Source: Pedobacter cryoconitis
GTDB lineage: Bacteria; Bacteroidota; Bacteroidia; Sphingobacteriales; Sphingobacteriaceae
DNA: 64,000 nt
Assembly: GCF_001590605.1 (NCBI RefSeq)
Contig: NZ_CP014504.1
Span: 3,720,001-3,784,000, forward strand
Direction of reading: 5' to 3'
Below the pieces are notes generated by a model. The model searched no databases, was not told where the DNA came from, and was given only the letters and a program-made list of their open reading frames with translations. Each line of letters opens with the position of its first letter. The first letter of the stretch is position 1. Positions 9,922 to 13,019 of this stretch are shown piece by piece. The position numbers and the translations under genes were made by a program.

Positions 9922-10695
9922 ATGAATGAATACGCTTTAATAACAGGTGCCAGCAAAGGAATAGGAAAAGCTATTGCAGTTTCACTTGCCCGTTCCGGCT
10001 ATCATTTACTGCTTGTTGCACGTAGCGATAGTGACCTTCAATTACTTTCACAAAGCATTGAACAACAATATAAAGTTAAAGTGCATTATTTGTCTGCCGA
10101 TCTTTCGCTCAACACATCTGCTGTACACCTCAAAGAATGGTGTACAGGTATCACTTCAGACCTATCTATCCTGGTTAATAATGCAGGATATGGACTATGG
10201 GCCGATTTTGAAGTTTTAAGCCTTTCGGAACAACTCAATATGCTCAGGCTGAACATCGATGCAGTAATTGAGCTGACCTATCACCTTTTACCTATTTTAA
10301 GAAAACAAAAACAGTCCTATATTCTAAATATATCCAGTGTAGCCGCTTATCAGGCTATGTCAAAACTTGCCTTATATGCCGCCAGCAAGTCATTCATACT
10401 TTCTTATAGTCGTGCCTTGCGCTATGAATTAAAAGATAGTCCGGTTACTGTTTCTTGCTTATCTCCCGGCCCTACTGCTACTGGATTTTCAAGTCGTGCC
10501 GGAATGGATGCCTTAACAGAGCTTGCCGAAAAATTCAACATGACGCCAGAAAAGGTAGCGGAAGCTGGCTTAAAAGGTATGTTCAAAAAGAAAGCAGAAA
10601 TCATTCCTGGCTTTCTAAATAAGGTTTCTGTTTTCAGTGCCTGGTTACTTCCTAAGTCATTGATTGAAAGGATTACAGCCAGCTTGTACAAGTAG
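9922..10695 (+). CDS. Classical SDR oxidoreductase (DltE/YqjQ-like)
   Basis: This 257-aa cytoplasmic NAD(P)-dependent short-chain dehydrogenase has all classical motifs in order: TGASKGIG (residues 8-15), ADL, NNAGYG (86-91), Asn111, the catalytic Ser near 138-139 (NISSVAAY), and Tyr152-x3-Lys156 (YAASK). PGPTATGF follows at about residue 177. The ending IPGFLNKVSVFSAWLLPKSL is typical of the DltE/YqjQ group, whose substrates are not well known. It stands alone immediately right of the DnaA-box cluster. Confidence 0.92.
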   Translation: MNEYALITGASKGIGKAIAVSLARSGYHLLLVARSDSDLQLLSQSIEQQYKVKVHYLSADLSLNTSAVHLKEWCTGITSDLSILVNNAGYGLWADFEVLSLSEQLNMLRLNIDAVIELTYHLLPILRKQKQSYILNISSVAAYQAMSKLALYAASKSFILSYSRALRYELKDSPVTVSCLSPGPTATGFSSRAGMDALTELAEKFNMTPEKVAEAGLKGMFKKKAEIIPGFLNKVSVFSAWLLPKSLIERITASLYK

Positions 10696-10757
10696 TAAAA
10701 AAGAATGGATATTTATTTTCAAATCTTATGATAAATAAAATATTTTCCTACATTTTT

Positions 10758-10782
10758 AATGTATACTAAATTAGTATACATT
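10758..10782. promoter_or_regulatory. Perfect 12-bp palindrome, candidate operator
   Basis: AATGTATACTAA (10758-10769) is followed, after one base, by its exact reverse complement (10771-10782). The palindrome ends 7 bases before the ATG of the poly-Cys leader peptide. Just upstream, TACATTTT (10749-10756) resembles the TAnnTTTG -7 element; if used, the palindrome would cover the transcription start. This fits a repressor operator. The regulator is not encoded nearby. Confidence 0.65.
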
Positions 10783-10789
10783 ACACCCT

Positions 10790-10876
10790 ATGAACTATAA
10801 CAACCCTATCCATAGCATGCCCATCATGCGAATGCCCTTCTCAGAAAGGGCAGGTTGTTGCTATTGTTGTTGTTAA
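10790..10876 (+). CDS. Poly-Cys leader peptide, 28 aa
   Basis: The frame opens at ATG 10790 and ends with TAA at 10874-10876. The peptide starts MNYNNPIHSMP and ends ERAGCCYCCC, with five Cys in its last six residues. Such C-terminal Cys runs are the hallmark of cysteine-responsive attenuator peptides described in mycobacteria upstream of sulfur genes; here the match is by analogy. It lies 99 bases before a PhyH-family dioxygenase gene and directly behind a palindromic operator. Translation stalling at the Cys codons when Cys-tRNA is scarce is the likely job. Confidence 0.6.
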   Translation: MNYNNPIHSMPIMRMPFSERAGCCYCCC

Positions 10877-10936
10877 ATCACTGAAAAAATATTCTTTGAT
10901 TAATATCCTTTAGAACCTGCCAATTTATGCAGCAGG
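10834..10936 (+). promoter_or_regulatory. Attenuator-like alternative RNA pairings
   Basis: Three pairings compete. GCCCTT (10834-10839) pairs with AAGGGC (10846-10851) inside the leader. GGCAGGTT (10849-10856), which covers the first Cys codon, is complementary to AACCTGCC (10914-10921). CCTGC (10916-10920) pairs with GCAGG (10932-10936) downstream. The second pairing excludes both others, so ribosome position on the Cys codons would decide the fold. No T-run follows, so control of translation or Rho access is likelier than intrinsic termination. Confidence 0.4.
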
Positions 10937-10975
10937 ATTTGCTATACCCAATTTTCACCCTAAATCTCAGCAACC

Positions 10976-11782
10976 ATGAACCATTCCTATACCAGATTCA
11001 CTTTAGGCGAAACCATTACAGATGAACAAAACTATTTTTTTAATAAAAATGGCTTCATCCATTTTAAAAACTTCATTCAGCCAGAAACGGTAAATAGCAT
11101 TATCCAGGCATCTTTAAAAGTCCAGCAGGATTGGATTGAGCAAAAGAAAATCAAAGTAAATGGCATCCCTGTTAAATATGGTAAGGATCTGGATGGTTCT
11201 GCTATTGTACAGCGTTTTGCGTTCCTGAATCAGCAGCATCCCTTGTTTTCCGGACTAACGCAAGATCCCCGATTTGAAACTTTATTAAGCCTTATCGGCC
11301 CTGGCGCCAGGTTAGGTACGGAAGAAAAAGATGGAATGGTTTTAAATCATTATGTCAATGGCCCGGAAAGTAAGTTTACACAAATGGGCTGGCATACGGA
11401 TGGTTTACGTGATATCTTTCACGGACAAAAATTAAATCCTATGCTGAATGTGGGAATCCATTTGAGTACGTTGAAACCAGAAAATGGTGGATTAAGGGTC
11501 CTGCCGGGTACGCACAAGCAAAGTCTTTATCAAATGTTATTCCGCAAGAAATATTTCCTGGATAATAAAGCTGATTTAAAAGAAGTAGCTATTGTTCCTG
11601 AGGCAGGAGATTTGACTATACACGACGGACGTTTATGGCACCGCGTTGCTCAATCGGCTGTAATTGGTGAACAAAGCCGGCGAAGAGTTATCTATTTACC
11701 AATCATTGCAGGTAAATACGAACCTAAACATGAAAATAGTCCAACTGCATTTTATCAGCGTTTTGCTAAACTTGTTAAATAA
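10976..11782 (+). CDS. Fe(II)/2-oxoglutarate dioxygenase, PhyH family
   Basis: This 268-aa cytoplasmic protein has the phytanoyl-CoA dioxygenase fold. The iron triad is visible: His140 and Asp142 in MGWHTDG and His222 in LWHRVA. Arg235-237 (SRRRVIY) is placed to bind 2-oxoglutarate. NGGLRVLPGTHKQS is the usual strand after the jelly-roll core. Family members hydroxylate very diverse small molecules. The poly-Cys leader and palindrome upstream suggest expression under sulfur limitation, so a sulfur-containing substrate (for instance a sulfonate or thioether) is possible. That is inference only, because the sequence is not TauD-like. Confidence 0.88.
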   Translation: MNHSYTRFTLGETITDEQNYFFNKNGFIHFKNFIQPETVNSIIQASLKVQQDWIEQKKIKVNGIPVKYGKDLDGSAIVQRFAFLNQQHPLFSGLTQDPRFETLLSLIGPGARLGTEEKDGMVLNHYVNGPESKFTQMGWHTDGLRDIFHGQKLNPMLNVGIHLSTLKPENGGLRVLPGTHKQSLYQMLFRKKYFLDNKADLKEVAIVPEAGDLTIHDGRLWHRVAQSAVIGEQSRRRVIYLPIIAGKYEPKHENSPTAFYQRFAKLVK

Positions 11783-11934: not shown

Positions 11935-12441
11935 CTATTGAACAACAACACCATCTTTGTTGATTTTGATGAAGGCCTTTTCAGTACCTTTCGTTACATC
12001 AATTTGGTAGAATTGCGATTTATCTGCTGCAGTTACTAAAAATGCTGTTGTAGCTGTCCAGTCTTTGTAAGCATCTGCTTTTAAAGTAGTGGTTACAGGT
12101 GCTGGAAGCTCTTCTAATTTAACAGGCACTTTCTGAGAACTATCTTGTTTTACACTCATTGTACTGTCTGTTCTCATCGTAGCTGCGCTATCCATTTTCA
12201 TTGTAGCTGCACTATCTGTTTTCATTGTAGCTGCACTGTCCATCTTCATAGTGGATGCACTATCTGCTTTAATTGTATATGCACTATCTGCTTTCATTGT
12301 ATATGCACTATCCATTTTCATAGTGGATGCGCTATCCATTTTCACTGTAACTGCTAACGGAGATTTAGTTTCTGATGCTTTTACTGTTGATATACCTGTA
12401 ATTGCTAATAATGCTGCGGCTGATAAAATGATATTTTTCAT
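11935..12441 (-). CDS. Secreted octapeptide-repeat protein with PepSY-like C-terminus
   Basis: The start at 12441 is preferred because it opens directly into a signal peptide (MKNIILSAAALLAITGISTV, cleavage near KASE). The mature part has about eight tandem octapeptides of the form MK(M/A/T)DSA(A/Y/S)T (60 residues). It ends with a globular domain of about 65 residues (ELPAPVTTTLKADAYKDW ... AFIKINKDGVVVQ) resembling the PepSY-like domains of Bacteroidota secreted proteins. The repeat is probably an unstructured spacer or a metal/surface-contact segment. Unit number could vary between strains. The gene has its own terminator. Confidence 0.8.
   Translation of the reverse strand: MKNIILSAAALLAITGISTVKASETKSPLAVTVKMDSASTMKMDSAYTMKADSAYTIKADSASTMKMDSAATMKTDSAATMKMDSAATMRTDSTMSVKQDSSQKVPVKLEELPAPVTTTLKADAYKDWTATTAFLVTAADKSQFYQIDVTKGTEKAFIKINKDGVVVQ
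12163..12345 (-). repeat. 24-bp coding tandem repeat (about 8 units)
   Basis: In-frame 24-base units encode the octapeptides of the secreted protein. The units keep the MK-x-DSA core while positions 3 and 7 vary. Copy-number change by slippage or recombination would keep the frame. Confidence 0.9.
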
Positions 12442-13019
12442 AATTTTAAGATTTGTGTTAAGCATTCGAAATTTTCAATTTGGTAATTTTATATTTCGCT
12501 ACTGTTGTGTATAATTCAGTTATTTAATCTGAATAGTATAGTTTCATAATAATGCCATAAACCGGCACACAAATCAACAAACTGAAAATCAGTAAACTAA
12601 CATTTTATCCTATGAAAAACACTGTGGAATAATGCTACAATATGAGGAGACAGGTACCAAAGAAAAATGCTGACATCCATCAGCATTTTTTTTATTAACT
12701 ACCTATTTATAAGCCGAAGCTTATTTCTTTGCGCAGTTATTGAACTGCATATTTTTAAAATTCATCTATTATAGCTTAATAGAATTCAAATGAAAAACAT
12801 GAGTGATAATTCAAACATTTGAGAGCGAATTATAACTATAGAGCGTTTTAAACTTGATTGAAATAAAGATATAACTTTTTTATAAAAATGATAAACAATC
12901 GAAGTATTTTTTGGTATAAAAATGATTTAGCATACAAATTGGAGACATATGTCCTTCGTTAAGGATATATTTTAATAATTTCTGCATCAAATATTAGCAG
13001 CATCTTCTATATTTATTAC
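12442..13019. other. 578-base gene-free stretch
   Basis: I see no reading frame longer than a few residues here. The stretch is very AT-rich. It contains one terminator-like hairpin (12663-12693) and, at its ends, the promoter regions of the octapeptide-repeat gene (minus) and of yceH (plus). TATATTTA just before yceH is a weak -7 match. Confidence 0.5.
12663..12693 (+). terminator. Orphan terminator hairpin
   Basis: AAAAATGCTGA (12663-12673) pairs with TCAGCATTTTT around CATCCA and is followed by more T residues. No gene ends near it on the plus strand, so it may end an untranslated small RNA or be a leftover. Confidence 0.6.

Follow-up and report, generated by a model that had tools for sequence, protein, structure and literature searches.

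The question raised by this locus of Pedobacter cryoconitis is why the gene of a PhyH-family oxygenase is preceded by a perfect palindrome and by a short open reading frame that ends in a run of cysteine codons. The window, i.e. the whole stretch of 64,000 nucleotides that was analyzed (contig NZ_CP014504.1, positions 3,720,001 to 3,784,000), includes here an inverted repeat with 12-bp arms (AATGTATACTAA and TTAGTATACATT, separated by a single A), followed 7 bases later by the ATG of a frame ending in CCYCCC, and then by a gene whose product matches Pfam PF05721 (E value 6.7e-17; 62.9 bits as compared to a gathering cut-off of 22 bits). These elements, listed in Table 1, are as the initial annotation had described them. 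The answer that we favor, with a probability of about 0.78 given what the sequences allow, is that the frame is a ribosome-stalling uORF that belongs to a sulfur regulon and is governed by an operator, and that it would give rise to PhyH when Cys-tRNA is scarce.

Table 1. Features of the region around the PhyH gene, in window coordinates.
Feature	Position	Strand	Basis
SDR-family oxidoreductase gene, usual upstream neighbor, outside the leader control	9922..10695	+	PF00106
Putative -7 promoter element TACATTTT	10749..10756	+	One base off TAnnTTTG
Putative palindromic operator, 12-bp arms, core TATACTAAATTAGTATA	10758..10782	.	Inverted repeat and conservation counts
Leader ORF, 28 codons, MNYNNPIHSMPIMRMPFSERAGCCYCCC	10790..10876	+	Conserved in relatives
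Met-Arg-Met with CGA codon (ATGCGAATG)	10826..10834	+	CGA in 77/78 Met-Arg-Met triplets of distinct upstream regions
Hairpin P1, just 5' of the Cys codons, in the clade of the window	10834..10851	+	20-sequence covariation
Cys codons TGT TGC, Tyr, TGT TGT TGT; proposed sensor	10856..10873	+	Sequence, conservation
Leader stop-codon hairpin, AATCA / TGATT	10876..10901	+	Folds, by eye
Hairpin CCTGC...GCAGG	10916..10936	+	Sequence, folds; no long T run 3'
PhyH-family oxygenase gene	10976..11782	+	PF05721

According to this reading the promoter palindrome, which is related to an element found at other sulfur genes, would bind a regulator, most likely a CymR-like protein of the Rrf2 family that represses when cysteine is plentiful. 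The transcript would open with the short ORF, the run of Cys codons would stall ribosomes when Cys-tRNA is scarce, and the stall on these codons would raise the expression of PhyH.

PhyH homologues were collected from 40 of 201 genomes of the family (30 were taken as loci) and from the best 80 of 190 places in a genome collection. The 110 pooled loci were reduced to 101 distinct upstream regions by removal of the identical ones (L014 is the same as L170, and L001 duplicates L002). Because only the best 80 of 190 relatives were used, the conservation counts concern close relatives, with PhyH identities of 67 to 100%, and because these share ancestry the 101 regions do not represent 101 independent events. 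At least three consecutive Cys codons in one frame are included in 99 of the 101. In 97 of the 101 this frame also extends uninterrupted from an ATG located 12 codons or more before the run; the antisense strand gave 1 such case, and the 100 shuffled sets gave 0.11 on average and 2 at most. The runs of the leaders consist of 3 to 8 whole codons, and in 18 leaders of equal length (26 amino acids) the four Cys codons vary at the third position only (0, 0, and 3 variable sites). The leaders have little in common in their N-terminal halves but keep Cys-rich tails: one Pedobacter group has the type RMRMCCCCA, the group of the window MRM...CCxCCC, and many Flavobacterium MRMCCCCCCC. In 17 distinct Flavobacterium-type upstream regions there is no stop codon past the Cys codons, and the leader continues, in another reading frame, over the first 43 nt of PhyH. 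Among the exceptions, L028 has no leader, L030 has two Cys codons only (YCC), and L024 has no ATG far enough upstream. Six homologues with lower identity (52 to 56%; L085 to L090) have no Cys-run leader, the closest feature in L089 being a 15-amino acids TTG-started frame with two separate Cys, and therefore the leader device is limited to one PhyH clade as far as it has been sampled.

As a separate observation, in the identical L014 and L170 an ATA is found about 130 nt before PhyH in place of the usual leader ATG, a possible natural loss of the start codon.

Within the genome that includes the window, searched as a 5.95-Mb single contig, the pattern Gly-Cys-Cys-[Tyr/Cys]-Cys-Cys-Cys-T(A/G)(A/G) is found at one site and its reversed control at none. 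A looser pattern, TGYTGYTGYTRR, by which TGG is accepted as well, is found at 118 sites as compared to 21 for the reversed control; inspection of 30 of the 118 showed a true stop codon in 19 and an ATG-started frame of at least 12 codons ending there in none (there was one of 11). A known Rfam leader family was ruled out, since Rfam 15 gave no match up to an E value of 1 within 10600-11100. The Arg codon of Met-Arg-Met is near-invariant (Table 1), and this codon, CGA, is the rarest Arg codon of the PhyH genes (38 of 1407 in the 110 loci). Slow decoding or a role in the RNA are possible. For the clade of the window RNAalifold pairs GCGA with the Cys codons, with no double changes at those pairs.

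The palindrome is conserved as well. When the best 17-mer match to either of two consensus forms was scored, allowing up to 3 mismatches, 94 of the 101 upstream regions had one, as compared to 1 of 505 shuffles. The distance from the end of the operator to the leader ATG is 2 nt at 65 loci and 11 nt at 15, together 80 of 99. In the 20-sequence alignment of the clade the inverted repeat is 83.3% paired, and slid versions reach at most 50.4%. The motif TAnnTTTG, which we take to be the Bacteroidota -7 element, lies within the 25 nt that precede the operator in 88 of the 101 distinct upstream regions, and the position of the operator relative to it varies between target classes. A search of the window's own genome for the palindrome with up to 2 mismatches was uninformative, with 7 matches (the site of the window among them, and one site entered once for each strand) as compared to 4 for the reversed control, and a longer pattern combining promoter and operator matched the site in the window only. 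Leader and operator are thus conserved across Pedobacter and Flavobacterium PhyH upstream regions, and the joint occurrence of Cys frame and palindrome that the initial annotation had proposed to look for in relatives was found.

Exact copies of a related element, CTACTAAATYTATAGAT, were found at 62 sites in 49 of the 145 genomes of the genus, and the reversed pattern at none. All 62 sites were inspected and their assignment to classes was finished by eye: 17 precede PhyH, 15 are of receptor type (TonB/SusC, or an operon containing them), 23 precede a small ORF and a tRNA-Met-like RNA, 3 precede tRNA-Cys, and 4 fall outside these classes (L105, L238, L243, and L240, the last within a gene). 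The 17 PhyH sites carry a Cys leader, which in L230 has two Cys codons only. An ATG-started short ORF with at least two adjacent Cys codons is found at 11 of the 15 receptor-type sites (L221 being doubtful); of the remaining ones L119 has only a TTG-started Cys short ORF, and L114, L116, and L220 have none. The operon behind the element in L091 includes SusC, SusD, a rhodanese, and a sulfatase, and that in L255 includes a formylglycine-generating-enzyme (FGE) domain, a TonB receptor, and SusD; both operons plainly concern organic sulfur. A looser search, in which the reversed control gave 2 matches, located the element before a tetrapyrrole methylase adjoining sulfate-assimilation genes (L064/L095).

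In the genome that includes the window the exact CTACTAAATYTATAGAT is absent. A second Cys leader, MKTDLHFIKMKRKTVKEGILFLSNCCC (...LSNCCC; contig coordinates 2171552-2171635), is located there behind the related site ACTACAAAATCTATAGA and ahead of a TonB receptor that is 77% identical to one of the regulon receptors. An element-like sequence, ACTACTAATTCTATCTA, with 3 mismatches and weak if taken alone, precedes a sulfite-reductase-type gene of the sulfate operon.

Since the same operator is found before sulfur-scavenging genes in Pedobacter, these bacteria probably sense cysteine shortage through the Cys leader and the operator. The initial annotation had described two layers of control, operator and leader, on a single enzyme. 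The two layers are indeed conserved together before PhyH, and their conservation argues for a cysteine-responsive unit. The restriction to a single enzyme does not hold: the element recurs, together with Cys-containing short ORFs, at receptor-type operons, and it recurs at tRNA genes, and it is therefore not a one-enzyme device. Taken together, the earlier interpretation is partly supported, in that the region appears to be a real, conserved, and cysteine-linked control region, with a mechanism that needs correction and a wider scope.

Two kinds of RNA genes were observed behind the element. In L117, L225, and L226 it is located just upstream of a tRNA-Cys (GCA) gene, which suggests that the supply of tRNA is subject to the sulfur operator; such an arrangement would tie charging capacity to sulfur supply. 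At 23 sites (L102, L103, L104, L112, L118, L120-L124, L127, L129, L222, L223, L229, L231, L233, L235, L236, L239, L241, L242, and L246) the element is followed by a conserved small ORF, mostly of 53 amino acids (MSIYFQYPAIDEYP..., MSIYFQYP...), behind which all 23 have a tRNA-like core. In this core the acceptor stem is irregular and the 3' tail is conserved; the anticodon, read by eye, is CAT except in L121 and L242, and those of the tested cores that passed did so as tRNA-Met by ARAGORN or as Rfam tRNA. The genome that includes the window gave no match to the 53-amino acids ORF. In L102 (2046-2142) and L124 (895-990) the strand opposite to the tRNA-like element carries the Flavo-1 RNA (RF01705), a few hundred bases away.

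How a stalled ribosome could act on PhyH depends on the RNA around and behind the leader. The initial annotation had invoked a switch in which GGCAGGTT (10849-10856), said to lie at the Cys codons, pairs with AACCTGCC (10914-10921) and thereby excludes two hairpins, P1 and CCTGC...GCAGG. Both hairpins are able to form and the two segments are complementary, but the overlap of GGCAGGTT with the Cys codons is limited to one base, with which the first of them begins (10856). This long-range pairing was rejected, as in 20 sequences it showed no covariation and was 52.9% paired as compared to 53.2% in shuffles. Hairpin P1, in the same number of sequences, is paired in 92.5% of the cells, with far lower values in slid controls; its covariation score, its paired percentage, and its doubly changed cells were each reached by 0 of 500 shuffles, and on two further measures it is weaker, since 140 of 500 shuffles reached its number of doubly changed pairs and 34 of 500 its value on the other. 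The spacers of 99 distinct upstream regions were folded, with L028 and L030, which have no Cys run, excluded. The 26 long-spacer leaders are followed by RNA that is structured on average (mean z -1.34, 10 of them below -1.5), and the RNA behind the 56 short-spacer (mean z +0.85) and the 17 overlapping leaders (+1.34) has less structure than shuffles, with none of these leaders below -1.5.

Classical transcription attenuation, in which the leader governs mutually exclusive terminator and antiterminator hairpins, is the strongest competitor and can be considered unlikely. It would account for the structured RNA of the 26 long-spacer leaders, for the covariation of P1 by three of five measures, and for L019, where a strong hairpin is followed by a T run. 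On the other hand, the alternative pairing that it needs does not covary, the last hairpin of the window has no long T run, and 73 of the 99 spacers are no more structured than shuffles, and therefore a terminator/antiterminator cannot be the general mechanism. This suggests that Cys-codon sensing operates mostly without a terminator. The Cys-codon stalling that we favor may thus be followed by different steps in different clades. In the clade of the window the hairpin before the Cys codons and the structured spacer RNA may act on transcription; hairpins similar to that at the stop codon in Table 1 were seen by eye in the folds of many long-spacer relatives. Most of the relatives examined have an unstructured spacer or a leader that overlaps out of frame with the start of PhyH, and there control must be translational (by occlusion or coupling) or Rho-based. 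The overlapping leaders suggest that a ribosome completing the leader runs across the start of PhyH, which a stall upstream could leave free.

It is a good deal less probable that the sign is the opposite one, so that a stall on the Cys codons lowers PhyH and the oxygenase is licensed only when cysteine suffices. Rho-type polarity behind a stalled ribosome would act in this way. However, the element also precedes tRNA-Cys and the operons for sulfatase, FGE, and receptors, an arrangement that is sensible under shortage, and in Bacillus subtilis CymR and its partner enzyme bind DNA only with cysteine present, according to excerpts of PMC9338935.

Very improbable, in our opinion, is the possibility that the Cys-rich peptide is itself the product, as a metal- or redox-sensing or a modified (RiPP-like) peptide with PhyH as its partner. 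Cys clusters bind metals and PhyH-type enzymes can tailor metabolites, which would fit such a role. Against it, the N-terminal parts of the peptides diverge freely, short ORFs with Cys runs are found before receptors without any PhyH, the run is located mid-peptide in some short ORFs, the frame overlaps PhyH in others, and the peptide of the window has no Pfam or NCBIfam family match. A chance short frame next to a chance palindrome, which could be argued because short frames are common and the original observation came from one sequence, is hardly credible and the chance frame was rejected in view of the leaders (97 of 101, shuffled mean 0.11), the operators (94 of 101, 1 of 505 shuffles), and the 62 element sites (control 0).

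In the favored reading the palindrome would bind a regulator, and CymR sites are palindromic and located at sulfur genes. An Rrf2 gene heads the sulfate-assimilation region of genome G213 (L095), which includes sulfite-reductase and PAPS-reductase domains, and its homologue in the window's own genome, 84% identical, is located before a tetrapyrrole methylase. The best specific model for both proteins is CymR (NF047409), at 80.5 and 82.9 bits and thus below its cut-off of 195 bits, and both pass the Rrf2 superfamily model (108.1 and 113 bits as compared to 73.3). The system resembles the CymR/Rrf2 cysteine regulon in having palindromic sites at sulfur genes and, as portrayed in excerpts of PMC9338935, an Rrf2 gene beside sulfur-assimilation genes; it differs in that the candidate Rrf2 protein scores well below the CymR cut-off and has a Cys-rich stretch, its contact with the operator being presumptive. 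A search around the Rrf2 gene of the window's own genome (at 5426232) gave no clear operator match, the best one upstream of the gene having 6 mismatches. A CymR-like Rrf2 protein is perhaps the regulator and the likeliest candidate.

Polycysteine leaderless uORFs have reportedly been described in mycobacteria by Canestrari et al. in 2020. In excerpts of two articles on these mycobacterial uORFs (PMC9094748, PMC9031893) cysteine availability is said to set the speed of the ribosome. As far as these excerpts go, the leaders described here are similar in that a short uORF with contiguous Cys codons is located ahead of the controlled gene. They differ in belonging to another phylum, in having an oxygenase and receptor/sulfatase operons among their targets, and in the near-invariant CGA codon for Arg. 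The start codon of the PhyH leader is located downstream of the operator and of the -7 element, and therefore the transcript is probably not leaderless. The uORFC-8-2 motif, upstream of cysS in Rhodobacterales, also has tandem Cys codons, and ribosome-mediated attenuation has been proposed for it; according to sections of PMC8632094 it serves cysS and has at its end a stem resembling an intrinsic terminator, unlike the 73 of 99 leaders without a structured spacer found here. Within the same phylum, leader peptides are thought to act in the attenuation of amino-acid biosynthesis operons in Flavobacterium psychrophilum (PMC9723704, in part); a term search of the main text of that article for cysteine and sulfur found no Cys leader. 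Among the matches listed in open-license literature, as judged by titles and the openings of abstracts, no description of a Cys leader in Bacteroidota was found. It is therefore conceivable, though we hold it only tentatively, that Pedobacter and perhaps its Bacteroidota relatives harbor an undescribed two-layer control of sulfur amino acids. In it, one type of operator would be placed over operons for organosulfur scavenging, over tRNA-Cys, and over the conserved tRNA-Met-like RNA with its 53-amino acids protein, and the Cys-codon uORFs in the mRNAs of the scavenging operons would have evolved independently. Most PhyH leaders would work without a terminator, and the near-invariant CGA would be a built-in pause before the Cys codons. 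One odd peptide would in this way offer a route into the cysteine control of a large bacterial phylum.

The function of the oxygenase itself can be approached through its regulation. PhyH proteins are presumably oxygenases of the 2-oxoglutarate/Fe(II) type, and residues H140 and D142 are invariant in 24 aligned relatives. A search of the PDB by sequence gave no homologue at an E value of 0.01. The structure model (mean pLDDT 66.8) has a general fold like those of FtmOx1, human PhyH, and EctD, and indicates no substrate. Among the best 80 of 190 the closest named relative is from Pedobacter cryoconitis (94% identity). Co-regulation would place PhyH among the functions of organosulfur acquisition, and therefore the enzyme probably acts on a sulfur compound or carries out a sulfur-sparing reaction. 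The regulon assigns testable functions to the PhyH enzyme and to receptors and sulfatase operons. A role in sulfonolipids or other lipids was also considered. It would agree with the SDR-type gene found directly upstream of PhyH by a motif test in 70 of 80 named loci (3 are at a contig edge and 7 fail, of which L157 is SDR-like by eye) and with a CDP-alcohol-phosphatidyltransferase-type gene downstream in some relatives (with a Pfam match for L174 and none for L160); no gene of the latter type is located beside the PhyH gene of the window. Beyond PhyH, the minus strand of the window (11935-12465) codes for a protein that has only a sub-threshold Pfam match and includes a run of MKMDSA-type repeats.
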